Of a stretch of DNA of 58,737 nucleotides, positions 5,139 through 11,716 are shown piece after piece; positions within the stretch are counted from its first letter, which is position 1, and the number at the start of each line of letters is the position of its first letter. Both the position numbers and the translations under genes were made by a program. This DNA comes from Gammaproteobacteria bacterium (GTDB taxonomy: Bacteria > Pseudomonadota > Gammaproteobacteria > Ga0077536): assembly GCA_016209015.1 (NCBI GenBank), contig JACQWY010000050.1, positions 1 to 58,737 of the forward strand, given 5' to 3'. The notes below the pieces were generated by a model. The model searched no databases. It was given only the letters and a program-made list of their open reading frames with translations, and was not told the DNA's origin.

Positions 5139-5245
5139 GCCGGCGGCTCGCGCGCGCCGGGTGTCCGGCCCTCCTGTAACACGCCGTCCGGCGCGGGACG
5201 TTATCATGCCCGCCATGTGCGGCAGCAAGCCTTGAGGAAGCAGCC

Positions 5246-6031
5246 TTGAGCTGGTGGGGAAAGGTCCTGGGCGGTGCTTTCGGGTTCGCCGCGGGCGGTC
5301 CGCTCGGCGCGCTGCTCGGCGTCGCGGTCGGCCATCACTTCGATCGCGGCCTCGAGGCGGGCCCCGCCCCGCTCGAGCACGCGCGCGCACCGACGATGGA
5401 AGAGCTGCAGACGGCGTTCTTCACGGCCGTGTTCAGCGTCATGGGCCATCTCTGCAAAGCCGACGGCCACGTCTCGCCGGCCGAGATCGCGATGGCCGAG
5501 TCGCTCATGGACCGCATGAACCTCGGGCCCGAGCAGCGCCGCGCGGCAATCGGTCTGTTCAACCAGGGCAAGGCGCCGGATTTTCCGTTCGACGCCGTGC
5601 TCGCGCAGTTCGAGCGCGAGGTCGGCCGCCAGCGCGACGTCGCGCGCTTCTTCCTCGAAATCCTGTTCCAGGCCGGCTACGCGGACGGTGAGCTCGGCGC
5701 GGCCGAACGCGCGGTGCTCTACGAGGTGGGGCGCCAGCTCGGGTTCGGCACGCTCGAGCTCGCCGCGATCGAGCTGCGCGCGCGCCCCGCCCCGCGCGGC
5801 CGGCAGGCCCCGCCGCAGCAATCGCTCGATGCCGCCTATGCGACGCTCGGCGTGCCGCGCACGGCCACGAACGACGAAGTCAAACGCGCCTACCGGCGGC
5901 TCCTCTCGCAGCATCATCCCGACAAGCTCGTCGGCGCCGGCGTGCCCGAGGAGATGATCGCGCTCGCGAACGAGAAGACGCACGAGATCAAGGAGGCGTA
6001 CCGGCGCGTCATGGAAGCGCGCGGCGCCTGA
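5246..6031 (+). CDS. djlA: DjlA-like J-domain co-chaperone with TerB-like domain
   Basis: A 261-residue protein with a Gly-rich hydrophobic N-terminus (residues 5-28) that could anchor it in the inner membrane. A helical TerB/DjlA-type domain follows at about residues 45-165, and a C-terminal J domain at 195-261 carries HPD at 224-226. DjlA proteins recruit and stimulate DnaK at the membrane. The start is TTG at 5246, chosen because the frame has MSWWGKVLGG directly afterwards, as in homologues. The gene ends 3 bp before the CHAD gene, so it may lead the CHAD-parA-queG-acyltransferase operon. Confidence 0.88.
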   Translation: MSWWGKVLGGAFGFAAGGPLGALLGVAVGHHFDRGLEAGPAPLEHARAPTMEELQTAFFTAVFSVMGHLCKADGHVSPAEIAMAESLMDRMNLGPEQRRAAIGLFNQGKAPDFPFDAVLAQFEREVGRQRDVARFFLEILFQAGYADGELGAAERAVLYEVGRQLGFGTLELAAIELRARPAPRGRQAPPQQSLDAAYATLGVPRTATNDEVKRAYRRLLSQHHPDKLVGAGVPEEMIALANEKTHEIKEAYRRVMEARGA

Positions 6032-6034
6032 ACC

Positions 6035-7573
6035 ATGGAGCGGCCGGTGCACTATTTCATCGCCGGCAGCGCCCCGCTCGCGCGCGGCCGGCTGCTGTGC
6101 GGGGCACTGACCGGCGCGACGCCCGCCACCGAGCGCGCGAAGATCACGCGCTTCGACAGCTTCGACGGCCTGCTCGAGACCGCGGGCCGCGTGTTGACCA
6201 TCGAACGCCACGGCCGGCGCCACATCGCGAATCTGCGCCGGGCGGGCGGCGAGCGCCTCGACTGGACGGGCGAGCTGCAGCGCGTGCCGCGCTTCGCCGC
6301 GGACTTCCCGACCGCCGGCCTGCGCACGCTGCTCGGCCGCATGCTCGGACCGCGGGCGCTCCTGCCCGGCGTGTCGTTCACCTTCGAGCGCGAGCGCTAC
6401 GGACTCACCGCGCCGAACGGCAAGCTGCTCGCGGAGCTCCTGCTGGAGCGTTATGCGAGCCCGCGGCTGACGCGTCATCACGGCGGCGATCTCGTGCTGC
6501 TGCGGCTGCGCGGCCTGCGCGGCTACGAAAAGGAACGCGACACGCTCGCCGCACATCTCGCCCGCGAGCCCGATGTCGAGCCGCTCGTCGTCGATCTGGC
6601 GGTCTTCCTCGCCGAGGCCGCGGGCGGCGCACCGCATCCCTATGTCGCGAAGCCCGCGGTCACGCTCGAGCCGACGCGCCCGGCCGCCGCGGGTGCCGCC
6701 GAGGTGCTCGCCGCGAACTTCGCGGTGATGCGCGCGAACGAATGGGGGATCCGCGCCGGCGTCGACGTCGAGTTTCTGCACGATTTCCGCGTCGCGATGC
6801 GCCGCATGCGGTCCGTCTTCATGGACTTCCGCAACGAGTTCCCGCCGGGCGAGGTCGCGCATTTCAGAACGGAATTCGGCTGGCTGAACGCCGTGACGGG
6901 CCGGCCGCGCGATCTCGACGTGATGCTGGACGTGATGCCTGCCGAGCTCGCCGCCGCGGGCATCGCCGCGCCGATTGCCGGGGCGATCGCGACCCGGCTC
7001 GCCGATCTGCGCGCGACGGCGCATGCCGAGCTCCTGCGCGAGCTCGGCGGCGCACGCTACCGGCGCTTCGTCGCGGACTGGCGGCGGCTCTTGAAGCGCG
7101 CCGCGGCCGCATCCGGCGGCAAGCCGCTCGCGAAGCGCGCCGCACAGGCGATCACGAAGCGCCATCGCCGCATCGTCGAACATCCGTGGCGTAACGACGG
7201 GAGCTGCACGCTCGAATCGCTGCACGAGCTGCGCAAGGAGTGCAAGAAGCTCCGCTATCTCGTCGAATCGTTCCAGTCGATCTACGCGCCGAAGACGATC
7301 AGGCGCGCGGTCGCGACGCTCAAGGGCTTGCAGAGCGCGATGGGCGAGGCCTTCGATCTGCACGTGCAGCGCACGCTGCTCGGGGAACTCGCCGGCGCGG
7401 CGCCGGGTGATCCGGAATGCGCTATGCTGGCGGACGCGCTGACGGCGCTCGATGCCCGACTCGCCGGCGCGGAGCAGCGCCGCCTCGGGACCGCGGCCGG
7501 CGCGCTCGAGGATTTCCGCGCCGCCTCCGAACGGCGCGTCTACCGGGAGCTGCTGCGCGCGACGTCGTCATGA
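6035..7573 (+). CDS. CHAD domain protein with degenerate CYTH-like N-terminus
   Basis: A 512-residue protein. From about residue 215 it is a CHAD domain with the two conserved His/Arg-rich helices: HDFRVAMRRMRSVF near 250 and LHELRKECKKLRYLVESF near 400. CHAD domains are helical and basic and bind inorganic polyphosphate. The first ~130 residues recall CYTH (triphosphate tunnel) domains in their RFDSFDGLLETAG segment, but the ExExK signature is not visible, so catalysis there is unlikely. The gene follows the djlA-like gene by 3 bp and overlaps the ParA gene by 4 nt (ATGA). A polyphosphate-related role is inferred from the domain alone. Confidence 0.85.
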   Translation: MERPVHYFIAGSAPLARGRLLCGALTGATPATERAKITRFDSFDGLLETAGRVLTIERHGRRHIANLRRAGGERLDWTGELQRVPRFAADFPTAGLRTLLGRMLGPRALLPGVSFTFERERYGLTAPNGKLLAELLLERYASPRLTRHHGGDLVLLRLRGLRGYEKERDTLAAHLAREPDVEPLVVDLAVFLAEAAGGAPHPYVAKPAVTLEPTRPAAAGAAEVLAANFAVMRANEWGIRAGVDVEFLHDFRVAMRRMRSVFMDFRNEFPPGEVAHFRTEFGWLNAVTGRPRDLDVMLDVMPAELAAAGIAAPIAGAIATRLADLRATAHAELLRELGGARYRRFVADWRRLLKRAAAASGGKPLAKRAAQAITKRHRRIVEHPWRNDGSCTLESLHELRKECKKLRYLVESFQSIYAPKTIRRAVATLKGLQSAMGEAFDLHVQRTLLGELAGAAPGDPECAMLADALTALDARLAGAEQRRLGTAAGALEDFRAASERRVYRELLRATSS

Positions 7574-8358
7574 TCGTGCTCGCCACCTACAACATCAAAG
7601 GCGGCGTCGGCAAAACGGCCGCGGCCGTCAACCTGTCGTGGCTCGCGAGCCGCGCGGGCCTGCGCACGCTGGTCTGGGATCTCGATCCGCAGGGCGCGGC
7701 AACGTTCTATTTCCGCATCGAGGCCGAACCCACCAGCGACGCGTCGGCGCTGCTCGACAAGAAGCGCGGCCTCGGCGCCGCCATCCGCAGCACCGATTAC
7801 CCGCGGCTCGACATGATCCCCGCTTCGCTCGGCCTGCGGCATCTCGATCTCGAGCTCTCCGAGTTCAAGAAGCCGACGGAACGCCTGCAGAAGCTGCTCG
7901 CCGGGCTCGCGCCCGACTACGACGTCGTCTTCCTCGACTGCGCACCGAATCTCTCGCTCGTCTCGGAGAACATCTTCGGCATGGCGGACTGGCTCGTCGT
8001 GCCGCTCATTCCGACGCCGCTGTCGCTGCGCGCCTACACGCAGTTGAAGAGCTTCTGCGAGACGGAAGGCCTCGACGCCTCGAAGCTGCTGCCGTTCTTC
8101 TCCATGGTCGATCGCCGCCGACAGTTGCACTGCGAGCTCGTGCAGCGCTTCGCGACGGAGCATGCCGAGCTCCTGCGGAGCTTCGTGCCGTACACGAGCC
8201 TCGTCGAGCGCATGGGCGAGGAGCGTGCGCCGGTCGGCACGTTCGCCGCCGGCAGCCCCGGCGCGCGTGCCTTCGAGGCGCTGTGGAAAGCCTGCGCGAC
8301 ACGCATCGGGCTCGTCGAGCCGGAAGCCGCGCCGGATCCGGCCCGACCACCCGCGTGA
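7570..8358 (+). CDS. Orphan ParA/MinD-family ATPase
   Basis: A 262-residue ParA-type ATPase with the deviant Walker A box KGGVGKT at residues 10-16, including the signature lysine K10. It also has the DLDPQGAAT switch and the CAPNLSLVSENIF region. Such ATPases bind DNA non-specifically as ATP dimers and position cargo: chromosome origins, plasmids or protein/lipid granules. No parB-like gene or parS-like cluster lies nearby. The ATG at 7570 overlaps the CHAD stop codon (ATGA), and the gene overlaps queG by 4 nt. The context is therefore a granule- or protein-positioning role rather than chromosome partition; this is inference. Confidence 0.88.
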   Translation: MIVLATYNIKGGVGKTAAAVNLSWLASRAGLRTLVWDLDPQGAATFYFRIEAEPTSDASALLDKKRGLGAAIRSTDYPRLDMIPASLGLRHLDLELSEFKKPTERLQKLLAGLAPDYDVVFLDCAPNLSLVSENIFGMADWLVVPLIPTPLSLRAYTQLKSFCETEGLDASKLLPFFSMVDRRRQLHCELVQRFATEHAELLRSFVPYTSLVERMGEERAPVGTFAAGSPGARAFEALWKACATRIGLVEPEAAPDPARPPA

Positions 8359-9440
8359 CCGTGGCCGATTACGACGCTGCCGCACTCAAGGACGAGATCA
8401 GGGACTGGGGGCAGGCGCTCGGCTTCGGGCGTCTCGGCGTCGCCGCGATCGCGCTGCCGGACGACGAGCTCCGCCTCGCCGCCTGGCTCGAGGCGGGCCG
8501 CCACGGCACGATGGAATACATGGCGCGCCACGGCACGAAGCGCAGCCGGCCCGCCGAGCTCGTGCCGGGCACGGTGTGCGCGATCTCGGTGACGCTGCCC
8601 TATCTCGATCGCGACGCGCGGCCGATGCGCGAGGTGCTCGCCGAGCCGCACACCGCCTACGTCTCGCGTTATGCGCTCGGCCGCGATTATCACAAGGTCG
8701 TGCGCGCACGTCTGAAGGCGCTCGCCGGACGCATCGGCGAGCGCATCGGCGAATTCGGCTATCGCGTCTTCAGCGACAGCGCGCCCGTGCTCGAGCGCGC
8801 GCTCGCCCGCAATGCCGGCATCGGCTGGATCGGCAAGCACACGAATCTCATCCACCGCTTCGACGGCTCGTGGTTCTTCCTCGGCGAGATCTACACCGAT
8901 CTGCCGCTGCCGCCGGACGCACCGTTCAAACGCGACCACTGCGGCACGTGCACGCGCTGCATCACGGCCTGTCCGACCGCGGCCATCGTCGCGCCCTACG
9001 CGCTCGACGCCAGGCGCTGCATCTCCTATCTCACGATCGAGCACCGCGGTCCGATCCCCGAGGAGTTTCGCGCCGCGCTCGGCAACCGCATCTACGGCTG
9101 CGACGACTGCCAGCTCGTCTGTCCCTGGAACCGTTACGCGAAGAAGAGCGTCGAGCCCGACTTCGCCGCGCGTCACGGCCTCGACGGCGCCTCGCTGCTC
9201 GCGCTCTGGGACTGGGACGAGGCGACGTTCCTGCGGCTCACCGAGGGCTCGGCGATCCGCCGCGTGAATTTCGAGCTGTGGCAGCGCAATCTCGCCGTCG
9301 CGCTCGGTAACGCGCCGCGCGATCCGGCGATCGCCGCCGCGCTCGCGCGCCGCCTGGATGCCGGCGTCAGCGAGCTCGTCGCCGAGCACGTGCGCTGGGC
9401 GCTCGCCCGCCACACGGCGGGACGGGATGCGCCGGCATGA
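8355..9440 (+). CDS. queG: Epoxyqueuosine reductase QueG
   Basis: Cobalamin- and [4Fe-4S]-dependent enzyme for the last step of queuosine synthesis, reducing epoxyqueuosine to queuosine in tRNA. Two ferredoxin-type cysteine clusters are visible: CGTCTRCITACP (C196, C199, C202, C206) and CDDCQLVCPW (C249, C252, C256). The YALGRDYHKVVR and NAGIGWIGKHTN motifs are also typical of QueG. I start it at GTG 8355, which overlaps the parA stop (GTGA); GTG 8361 is an equally possible start two codons later. Length (361 aa) is normal. It overlaps the downstream gene by 4 nt. queC lies about 48 kb away in the same window. Confidence 0.93.
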   Translation: MTVADYDAAALKDEIRDWGQALGFGRLGVAAIALPDDELRLAAWLEAGRHGTMEYMARHGTKRSRPAELVPGTVCAISVTLPYLDRDARPMREVLAEPHTAYVSRYALGRDYHKVVRARLKALAGRIGERIGEFGYRVFSDSAPVLERALARNAGIGWIGKHTNLIHRFDGSWFFLGEIYTDLPLPPDAPFKRDHCGTCTRCITACPTAAIVAPYALDARRCISYLTIEHRGPIPEEFRAALGNRIYGCDDCQLVCPWNRYAKKSVEPDFAARHGLDGASLLALWDWDEATFLRLTEGSAIRRVNFELWQRNLAVALGNAPRDPAIAAALARRLDAGVSELVAEHVRWALARHTAGRDAPA

Positions 9441-11716
9441 ACGGCGGTATCGAGCTCGATCCCCAGACCTACGAGTGGTGCGTGCGGCTCTTCGAGCACG
9501 CGCAGAAGCTGCTGAAGGTCGACATCACGTTCCATCACCAGCGCGATCAGATCGTCGAAGGCGACGTCTTCCTCTTCAATCATTTCGCGCGCGCCGAGAG
9601 TTTCATCCCGCAATACCTCATCTACCGCGAGACCGGCACGCTGTGCCGTTCGGTCGCCGCCGCGGAGCTCTTCAAGGGCAACGATCGCTTCGCGCGCATG
9701 CTGCGCGACGTCGGCGCCGTGCCGAACGATCATCCCGAGCTCCTGAAGCTGCTCGCCGTCGACATCCTGCGCGGACGCAAGGTCGTGATCTTCCCGGAAG
9801 GCGGCATGGTGAAGGATCGCCAGGTCGTCGACGGCAACGGCGAGTACGGCGTCTATTCGCGCAGTGCGAACGCGCGGCGCAAACATCATTCGGGCGCGGC
9901 GCGGCTCGCGACGGGCCTGCAGATCTTCAAGCAGGCGATCGCCCGGCGCCTCGCGCGCGGCCGGATGGCGGACCTCGAGCGCTGGGCGGACGAGCTCGGC
10001 CTGCCGTCGGCCGAAGTGCTCGTCGCGAACGCGGCGCGGCCCGTGACCATCGTGCCCGCGAACATCACGTTCCATCCCCTGCGCGTTTCCGACAATTTCC
10101 TGCGGCGCGGCGCGGAGCTCGTGCTGAAGGAGCTGAGCCCGCGCGCGGCCGAGGAGCTCGTCGTCGAAGGCAATCTGTTCTTCAAGGCGACGGACATGGA
10201 CATCCGCCTCGGCGATCCGATCCGCCCGGCGGAGATCTGGAGCTGGTGGGAGCGTGCGCTCGCCGCCTGGCTCGCGCGCGATCTGCCGGGGCTCGACGCC
10301 GCGTTCCGGCGCGAGCACCTCGCGGGCTCGTGGCCCCGCCGGCTCGCGAACCGCGGCCTCGCTGCGAGCGTCGCGTCGCTCCGCGATCGCTACATGCGCG
10401 ACATCTACCGCGCGGTGACCGTCAACGTGAGCCATCTCGCCGCACGGGCCGTGCTCGAGGCGCTCGAAGCGGGACGCGGCACGCTGCCGCTCGACACGCT
10501 CTGCCGCGTCGTCTATCTCGCGCTGAAGACTTTGCAGCGCGATGCGGAGATCCATCTCCATCGCGGCCTCGGGGATCCGGAGCGCTATCGGCGGCTGCTG
10601 AACGGGCCGCCCGAGGATCTGCGCGAATTCCTCGCGGCCGCGGCGGACGCGGGCCTCATCACGCTCACCGAGGGGACTTTGGAATTACGCGAGAAGCTGC
10701 GCCACGAGCACGGCTTCGACGCCGTGCGGCTCGAGAATCCGCTCGAGGTGTATGCGAACGAGATCGAGCCGCTGCCGGCCGTCGGCGCGGCGGTGCGCGC
10801 GGCCTGGCAGGCGCTCCCCGCAGTGCGCCCGGCGGACTGGGCACGGCACGCCTTCGACGACGAGCAGCGCATGCTCTCCCACGATCGGCGACAGTTCAGC
10901 GCGGCGAAGCATCACGAGCTCAACGCCAGCGAAACCGCGACGGCGGATCCCGCGCCCTTCCTGTTCACGCCGGAAGCGCCGCGCCCGCTCGGCGTCGTGC
11001 TCGTGCACGGCTTCCTCGCGACGCCCGCGGAAGTGCGTCCGTTCGGTGAGAAGCTCGCGCAGGCGGGCTATCCGGTGATCGGCGTGCGACTGAAGGGCCA
11101 CGGCACCTCGCCCTGGGATCTGCGCGAACGCTCCTGGCGCGACTGGCTCGCGTCCGTCGCCGCGGGCGCGGAGATCCTGCGTCCGTTCGCGGAGCGGATC
11201 TGCGTCGTCGGCTTCTCGACGGGCGGCGCGCTCGCGCTCGCCTATGCCGCGGAGCAGCCGCCCGGGCTCGCGGGCGTGGTGTCGATCTGTCCGCCCCTGA
11301 AGTTCCGGAACCGCAACATGCGCTTCGTGCCGCTCGTGCACGGCGCGAACCGCTTCGTCGCATGGGTCGCGCAGCTCGAAGGGGTGATGCCGTTCCGGCC
11401 GGCGGAGACGGAGCATCCGCTCATCAACTACCAGCACATGCCGGTGCGCGGTCTCTACGAGCTGACGCGCATGGTCGGACATCTGCGCAAGACGCTGCCG
11501 GCGATCCGCTGCCCGGTCTCGATCGTGCAGTCGAGCGGCGACCCGGTCGTCGATCCGGCGGGCGCGGAGGAAGTGCGCGCGGCGCTGACGGTCGCCGACA
11601 AAACGCTGCACTGGGTGGAAGCACGACGCCACGGCATCCTCTACGAGGACATCGGCGCGACGCACGCGCTGGTGATGGAGTTCCTCGCGCGGCGCGCGGC
11701 CGCGCTCAGCCCTTGA
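9437..11716 (+). CDS. Acyltransferase-alpha/beta hydrolase fusion protein
   Basis: A 759-residue fusion. Residues ~25-260 look like a PlsC/PlsB-type glycerolipid acyltransferase, with FNHFARAES around 47-55 in place of the usual NHxxxxD box (H49, E54) and FPEG at 119-122. The middle part (~330-500) contains ENPLEVYANEIEPLP, a PlsB-family-like segment. Residues ~515-759 form an alpha/beta hydrolase with an oxyanion loop at VHGF (H524), nucleophile S594 in GFSTGG, an Asp in GDPVVD and H732. It therefore pairs lipid acylation with ester hydrolysis in one chain and probably acts at the membrane in phospholipid or lysolipid remodelling. The substrate is unknown. It overlaps queG by 4 nt and overlaps the opposing gene by 11 nt. 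Confidence 0.82.
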   Translation: MNGGIELDPQTYEWCVRLFEHAQKLLKVDITFHHQRDQIVEGDVFLFNHFARAESFIPQYLIYRETGTLCRSVAAAELFKGNDRFARMLRDVGAVPNDHPELLKLLAVDILRGRKVVIFPEGGMVKDRQVVDGNGEYGVYSRSANARRKHHSGAARLATGLQIFKQAIARRLARGRMADLERWADELGLPSAEVLVANAARPVTIVPANITFHPLRVSDNFLRRGAELVLKELSPRAAEELVVEGNLFFKATDMDIRLGDPIRPAEIWSWWERALAAWLARDLPGLDAAFRREHLAGSWPRRLANRGLAASVASLRDRYMRDIYRAVTVNVSHLAARAVLEALEAGRGTLPLDTLCRVVYLALKTLQRDAEIHLHRGLGDPERYRRLLNGPPEDLREFLAAAADAGLITLTEGTLELREKLRHEHGFDAVRLENPLEVYANEIEPLPAVGAAVRAAWQALPAVRPADWARHAFDDEQRMLSHDRRQFSAAKHHELNASETATADPAPFLFTPEAPRPLGVVLVHGFLATPAEVRPFGEKLAQAGYPVIGVRLKGHGTSPWDLRERSWRDWLASVAAGAEILRPFAERICVVGFSTGGALALAYAAEQPPGLAGVVSICPPLKFRNRNMRFVPLVHGANRFVAWVAQLEGVMPFRPAETEHPLINYQHMPVRGLYELTRMVGHLRKTLPAIRCPVSIVQSSGDPVVDPAGAEEVRAALTVADKTLHWVEARRHGILYEDIGATHALVMEFLARRAAALSP

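Follow-up and report, generated by a model that had tools for sequence, protein, structure and literature searches.

A CHAD–ParA Gene Pair Conserved across Phyla as a Candidate Module for Positioning Polyphosphate Granules

Introduction

In the McdAB system, a ParA-type ATPase works with a partner protein that binds the cargo (PMC13052382). Polyphosphate (polyP) granules are an evenly spaced cargo in Pseudomonas aeruginosa, where the protein described is AlgP (PMC9239181). AlgP and PhaM have been proposed to tether polyP granules to DNA or to set the place of nucleation (PMC9239181, PMC13052382), and a 2025 review treats it as unsettled whether cells expend energy on the spacing and inheritance of these granules (PMC13052382). 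The available text of these two sources describes no ParA for polyP. Similarly, a term search of the main text of a ParA/MinD survey in H. neapolitanus returned neither CHAD nor polyphosphate (PMC10241942), and searches of the open-access literature, a scope outside which most subscription papers and bioRxiv lie, listed no paper whose title or abstract proposes a ParA for polyP granules.

The CHAD domain of Chlorobium tepidum (CtCHAD; PDB 6qv7/6qva) has been shown by mutation to bind polyP through residues H253, R256, R260, R296, R418 and Y419 of its central cavity (PMC6537752). In Acidithiobacillus, parA lies beside CHAD and ppk. This arrangement was printed in 2019 in a paper on nucleotide signalling, with parA in a figure legend (PMC6416229), and in 2024 the group formed by folD, ppk, parA and CHAD was called highly conserved, with ParA described by its plasmid-partition role (PMC10892726).

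The DNA analyzed here (the window, a stretch of 58,737 nucleotides from a gammaproteobacterial genome) contains a CHAD gene overlapping the gene of a ParA-type ATPase. Judged by published gene order, the Acidithiobacillus cluster resembles this locus in having CHAD beside parA with ppk1 near, and it is very probably the same module. It differs in that the published cluster belongs to one genus and comes from studies of nucleotide signalling and of copper resistance, which name parA as a partition gene of chromosomes or plasmids. The original prediction for this locus knew of no description of the combination. That statement requires amendment: the adjacency is in print for Acidithiobacillus in the two papers cited, although the available text of both gives it no positioning interpretation.

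The window pair resembles McdAB in combining a ParA-type ATPase with a partner, which is here assigned to its cargo by homology. It differs in that the partner is a folded protein with a triphosphate-tunnel (TTM) domain and a CHAD domain, a predicted polyP binder in which no basic N-terminal peptide was seen, and in that the pair is known from sequence. With CtCHAD, whose structure covers the CHAD part only, it shares the fold and the six cavity residues. With AlgP it would share the polyP granule as cargo, although AlgP is a histone-like DNA-binding protein. The Soj/ParA chromosome partition ATPases have the same fold and catalytic motifs, whereas the window ParA has no ParB and its DNA-binding Arg loop is not conserved.

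Results and Discussion

The genes around the pair are listed in Table 1. The overlap of the parA start with the CHAD stop, claimed in the original prediction, is exact to the base and spans 4 bp, and the J-domain co-chaperone gene does end 3 bp upstream of CHAD. Pfam assigns the CHAD product with an E-value of 1.9e-53 and the parA product to AAA_31 (1e-30), plus CbiA. The gene upstream of CHAD is identified as DjlA (NCBIfam NF006948, 282 bits, above cut-off), and a family search places the gene after parA in the QueG family. For the fusion gene following queG, the acyltransferase match is weak and no listed family covers the whole length. CHAD has a single match in the whole source genome. The absence of ParB beside parA was also confirmed: since the sole ParB_N match in the 5.7-Mb source genome adjoins a different parA, on contig C45, no ParB belonging to the window ParA lies nearby.

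Table 1. Genes at the CHAD–parA locus, in window coordinates
Feature	Position	Strand	Remarks
djlA-like TerB/J-domain co-chaperone gene	5246..6031	+	stop TGA 6029-6031; 3 bp before CHAD reading frame
CHAD gene	6035..7573	+	512 aa; stop TGA 7571-7573
ParA-type ATPase gene (parA)	7570..8358	+	262 aa; ATG 7570-7572; no adjacent ParB
queG (epoxyqueuosine reductase)	8355..9440	+	GTG start at 8355 overlaps parA stop
acyltransferase-like/alpha-beta hydrolase fusion gene	9437..11716	+	759 aa; overlaps queG stop; outside the CHAD–ParA module

The adjacency of CHAD and parA, proposed earlier as the quantity to count and, if restricted to this genome, as a refutation of the idea, is not confined to the source genome; the idea thus passes this check. 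An ortholog search across 58 genomes gave 20 loci (the window's own and 19 others) with a ParA ortholog of at least 52% identity, and CHAD lies directly upstream of parA in 17 of these 20. At L016–L018, parA has no CHAD directly upstream, and the upstream gene at L016 is an AI-2E transporter by Pfam. A ParA profile scan of GTDB contigs matched at least 594 stretches, 592 of those listed encoding a relative. The analysis used the best 80; they represent the closest ParA relatives rather than an even sample, and four of their loci are shared with the ortholog set. Among these best 80 of at least 594, CHAD is directly upstream on the same strand at 61 loci, and with start codons set by rule the two genes overlap in 46 of the 61, lie 0–20 bp apart in 12 and lie 21–100 bp apart in 3. 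This count includes L089, L093 and L101, where CHAD is broken, partial or interrupted by N and was counted wherever a piece sat upstream; partial genes occur at L010, L021, L084 and L085, and a second scan of the best 80 found CHAD in 60, the L085 fragment not being picked up. No identical ParA proteins occur among the best 80 of at least 594 loci. By record title, the 61 paired loci from this set include Gammaproteobacteria, Nitrosomonas, Alphaproteobacteria (with Thalassobaculum litoreum DSM 18839), Deltaproteobacteria/Desulfuromonadales, Actinobacteria (Geodermatophilaceae) and Thermoanaerobaculia, where single placements may be wrong because many of the genomes are MAGs. Named strains with the pair include Methylotuvimicrobium buryatense 5G, Nitrosomonas marina Nm22 and Thalassobaculum litoreum DSM 18839.

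A neighbouring CHAD is absent for 19 of the best 80 of at least 594 ParAs. At L047 its absence means little because the stretch begins 361 bp before parA. Genomes in which parA does not adjoin CHAD generally carry CHAD elsewhere (17 of 18 searched in the genome collection, drawn from the best 80 of at least 594, and 21 of 25 searched overall), with no match at E 1e-5 in G006, G060, G105 and the genome of L099. In the genome of L110 (Acidobacteriota), the contig with parA also carries a CHAD reading frame, which starts some 4.3 kb downstream in a stretch with CYTH, ppk1 and ppx genes.

An even sample of 124 genomes across the class, searched with thresholds of E 1e-50 for the ParA profile and E 1e-8 for CHAD, contained 16 genomes with a ParA match and 34 with a CHAD match. 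A CHAD match ends less than 300 bp from ParA on the same strand in 12 of the 16, the source genome included. The four unpaired cases comprise a ParA at a contig edge (G114), a CHAD on another contig (G083) and two genomes with no CHAD (G060 and G105). In this sample ParA occurs in 14 of the 34 CHAD genomes versus 2 of the 90 others (Fisher p 1e-7, genomes counted as independent), and 20 of the 34 CHAD genomes have no ParA of this type. A search of 149 genomes from the phylum of L105 (Actinobacteria by record title) found the ParA in 7; CHAD adjoins it in 4 of the 7, search centre included, and no CHAD was found within 1.5 kb in the three remaining genomes. As a control, 14 loci coding for other ParA relatives (L022–L035, about 1.5 kb flanks) were scanned, and none contained CHAD; the pairing at the orthologous and genome-collection loci therefore exceeds chance. 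Comparison of the CHAD and ParA trees gave a mirror-tree correlation of r 0.76 over 69 pairs, against a maximum of 0.22 in 2000 shuffles, with the species tree not factored out; this fits joint inheritance of the two proteins. The two genes form a unit that is conserved widely, with ties to CHAD and to genomes that have polyP kinases.

The genes outside the pair behave differently from it. DjlA as a partner of CHAD–ParA is not borne out: it adjoins CHAD only at L039 among the best 80 of at least 594 loci, is a lineage-specific neighbour, and was rejected as a module member. At L012, L036 and L037, phoH lies ahead of CHAD and the interval contains no djlA match, and the flanks of L002–L021 are mostly too short to judge this neighbour. 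QueG was rejected as well, as queG adjoins parA in 4 of the best 80 of at least 594 genome-collection loci. Within the window's family (L002–L018), parA adjoins queG in 17 of 17 loci and CHAD in 14 of 17. CHAD lies directly before queG in G063 (L148), where ParA has no match, and more loosely near it in G061 (L147).

This arrangement bears on the proposal that CHAD and parA have a promoter in common but no joint function. In the window lineage both genes belong to an extended, overlapping gene series that also includes djlA and queG, and parA–queG and CHAD–queG each occur without the third gene, as operon hitchhiking would allow. However, the adjacency is kept across phyla with different outside neighbours, and CHAD and ParA co-occur even when unlinked, so that we regard hitchhiking as highly improbable.

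Other genes accompany parA in some lineages. Methylotroph genomes have a glycogen phosphorylase-like gene after parA at 9 of the best 80 of at least 594 loci (L065, L066, L068, L073, L080, L081, L088, L090 and L061; Pfam Phosphorylase on L088). Most of these are parA genes without a CHAD neighbour, and L061 has one. At L020, CHAD–parA is followed by a histidine phosphatase gene and a ROK-family kinase gene.

The pair is also found on at least two plasmids. Eleven plasmid records matched ParA, and at two of the six loci inspected, both on Paracoccus plasmids, CHAD adjoins the ParA-type ATPase. The order there is a small reading frame, CHAD, ParA, CYTH and NUDIX; on one of the plasmids phoU–phoB lies upstream, followed by CHAD–ParA–CYTH–NUDIX–CYTH. 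The small hypothetical reading frame (62 aa) overlaps the CHAD start on both plasmids (L136:2299-2487; L140:2288-2476) and is a possible extra component. The inspected stretches around the Marinobacter, Sphingomonas and Novosphingobium plasmid ParAs contain no CHAD match, and at the Pontibacter locus the upstream side of the ATPase ends with the record. On the conjugative plasmid pMAQU02 of Marinobacter nauticus VT8, the ParA (L138:5001-5747, 41% identity, no CHAD match) lies about 3.6 kb from phbB (polyhydroxybutyrate), possibly pointing to another storage polymer.

The connection to polyP metabolism is seen in gene content and in gene neighbourhood. PPK1 is present in 38 of 40 chosen ParA genomes and the other two have PPK2; in the 124-genome sample, PPK1 occurs in 14 of 16 ParA genomes versus 54 of 108 others (Fisher p 0.006). 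The flanks of the best 80 of at least 594 loci (4 kb at most, shorter where a contig ends) contain SixA-like genes at 12, ppk1 at 7, PstS-like genes at 7 and CYTH at 5, as exemplified by the Pfam families His_Phos_1, PP_kinase, PBP_like_2 and CYTH, the names SixA and PstS being interpretation. For CHAD genes detached from parA (L116–L132), a SixA-like or PstS-like gene lies in the fetched stretch in 16 of 17 cases, and among 20 CHAD loci of ParA-less genomes, 4 have ppk nearby and 4 a SixA-like gene. Such neighbours therefore mark CHAD more than ParA, because CHADs without ParA have them too. At L043, a gene fusing NUDIX and histidine phosphatase domains (5235-6101) follows CHAD–parA–CYTH, with ppk1 upstream.

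The pair could instead be a phosphate or nucleotide signalling unit, with the TTM-like domain acting as a sensor of triphosphate or polyP whose signal is passed on by ParA, SixA-like or Nudix partners. The SixA-like, Nudix, CYTH, PhoB/PhoU and PstS-like neighbours are in line with this idea, but it is improbable, since only CHAD–ParA recurs in most loci while the others vary and reach at most 12 of the best 80 of at least 594. Because the adjacency is conserved, the polyP-binding residues are invariant, the ParA genomes have PPK1 or PPK2 (40 of 40 chosen) and polyP genes lie nearby, it is very likely that CHAD–ParA is a module dedicated to polyP. Together with the empty control loci, these observations bear out the polyP link of a conserved pair that had been suggested from the window.

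The AlphaFold2 model of the window CHAD protein has a mean pLDDT of 92.6. Residues 203–511 fit the Chlorobium CHAD crystal structure with Z 32.9 and 2.1 Å over 306 residues, and Pfam CHAD matches 47 of 47 family members. The six central-cavity residues of CtCHAD listed above align, in the same order, to H249, R252, R256, R292, R407 and Y408 of the window protein, and all six positions are invariant in the 47-row family alignment. The protein is thus predicted to bind polyP. Residues 1–200 of the model adopt a triphosphate-tunnel (CYTH-like) fold, with Z of about 15 against TTM chains. CYTH/TTM triphosphatases have an ExExK motif on the first strand. The aligned first strand of this N-terminal domain showed no such motif, and Pfam CYTH matches none of the 47 family members, so the domain is probably inactive and an active CYTH triphosphatase was rejected; D41, D44, R107, K130 and G163 are still conserved.

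An N-terminal Arg/Lys peptide that could stimulate the ATPase had been envisaged for CHAD and is not borne out. In the AlphaFold2 model of the window protein the first strand begins at residue 5, so that the folded tunnel domain starts almost at once and leaves no basic peptide; this check refers to the window protein, as the true starts of other CHAD members are not fixed. At the C-terminus the tails are short, and basic in only some cases.

The ParA protein retains the features of an ATPase. Across 99 ParA sequences, K10 and K15 of the deviant Walker A motif, D39 and D123 (catalytic Asp and Walker B) are conserved in at least 95%, and D39 aligns to the catalytic D60 of Myxococcus xanthus ParA. 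The nearest folds to the ParA model are ParA/Soj (Z 28–30), McdA (Z 26) and BcsQ (Z 24.8). These almost invariant catalytic residues are relevant to the possibility that ParA and CHAD act solely as a tether of granules to DNA, or fix the nucleation site, without energy-driven spacing. Tethers of the AlgP type have been described for polyP granules (PMC9239181, PMC13052382), but a static tether would not need catalytic ATPase residues, and we consider this explanation unlikely.

DNA binding is less clear. In M. xanthus ParA, R238 is required for non-specific DNA binding (PMC12462528). Its equivalent in the window ParA is L211, and the position is basic in 2% of the 99 sequences; the numbering of PDB 8ray is offset by 19 from that of the paper, as inferred from the D60A substitution in the 8ray sequence. 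The other Arg of the DNA-binding loop is replaced by Y208. A conserved basic triplet, R182–R184, could substitute in DNA binding.

ParA might alternatively be an ATP-dependent switch for the assembly or activity of polyP enzymes on the granule, in the way that BcsQ acts in cellulose synthesis, and not a nucleoid-based positioner. The Pfam BcsQ family (PF06564) also matches the window ParA, at 26.7 bits with a cut-off of 21.3, and the protein falls below the cut-off of the NCBIfam BcsQ model. The Pfam match, the absent canonical DNA-binding Arg and the ppk1, CYTH and SixA-like neighbours all favor such a switch. Conversely, the closest folds are ParA/Soj, with BcsQ lower, and CHAD, the invariable partner, is predicted to bind polyP, has lost its TTM motif and is not an evident enzyme. 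On balance, we judge the enzyme switch rather unlikely.

Granule positioning is the reading that we prefer, even though the lack of a basic N-terminal peptide and the loss of the M. xanthus DNA-binding Arg weigh against it. So do the ParAs that have no CHAD beside them, the CHAD genomes without this ParA, the polyP-gene neighbours of CHADs without ParA, and the steadier link of parA to queG than to CHAD in the window's family. We propose that the CHAD domain, by homology and through its conserved residues, would bind polyP on the granule, and that ParA, as its motifs and fold suggest, would form an ATP-dependent dimer. The dimer would then bind the nucleoid, which is the weakest step. The CHAD protein may contact ParA through its degenerate TTM domain or short C-terminal tail and promote ATP hydrolysis. 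Granules would track the resulting ParA gradients and so be spaced and distributed to the daughter cells, much as carboxysomes are by McdAB. The chance that CHAD and ParA form a two-gene positioning module of this kind appears to us close to even. The broader proposal, that a pseudo-TTM–CHAD adaptor with its own ParA drives ATP-dependent segregation of polyP granules across several phyla and on some plasmids, is put forward tentatively, at somewhat below even chances.

Conclusions

The CHAD–ParA pair, kept together across phyla, provides a candidate ATPase and adaptor for the placement of polyP granules, and the question thereby becomes testable. If the proposal is true, the ParA/MinD family would gain an inorganic polymer as cargo, together with a partner that dispenses with the usual N-terminal peptide, and the "chromosome segregation" label on the two Paracoccus ATPases would be wrong.
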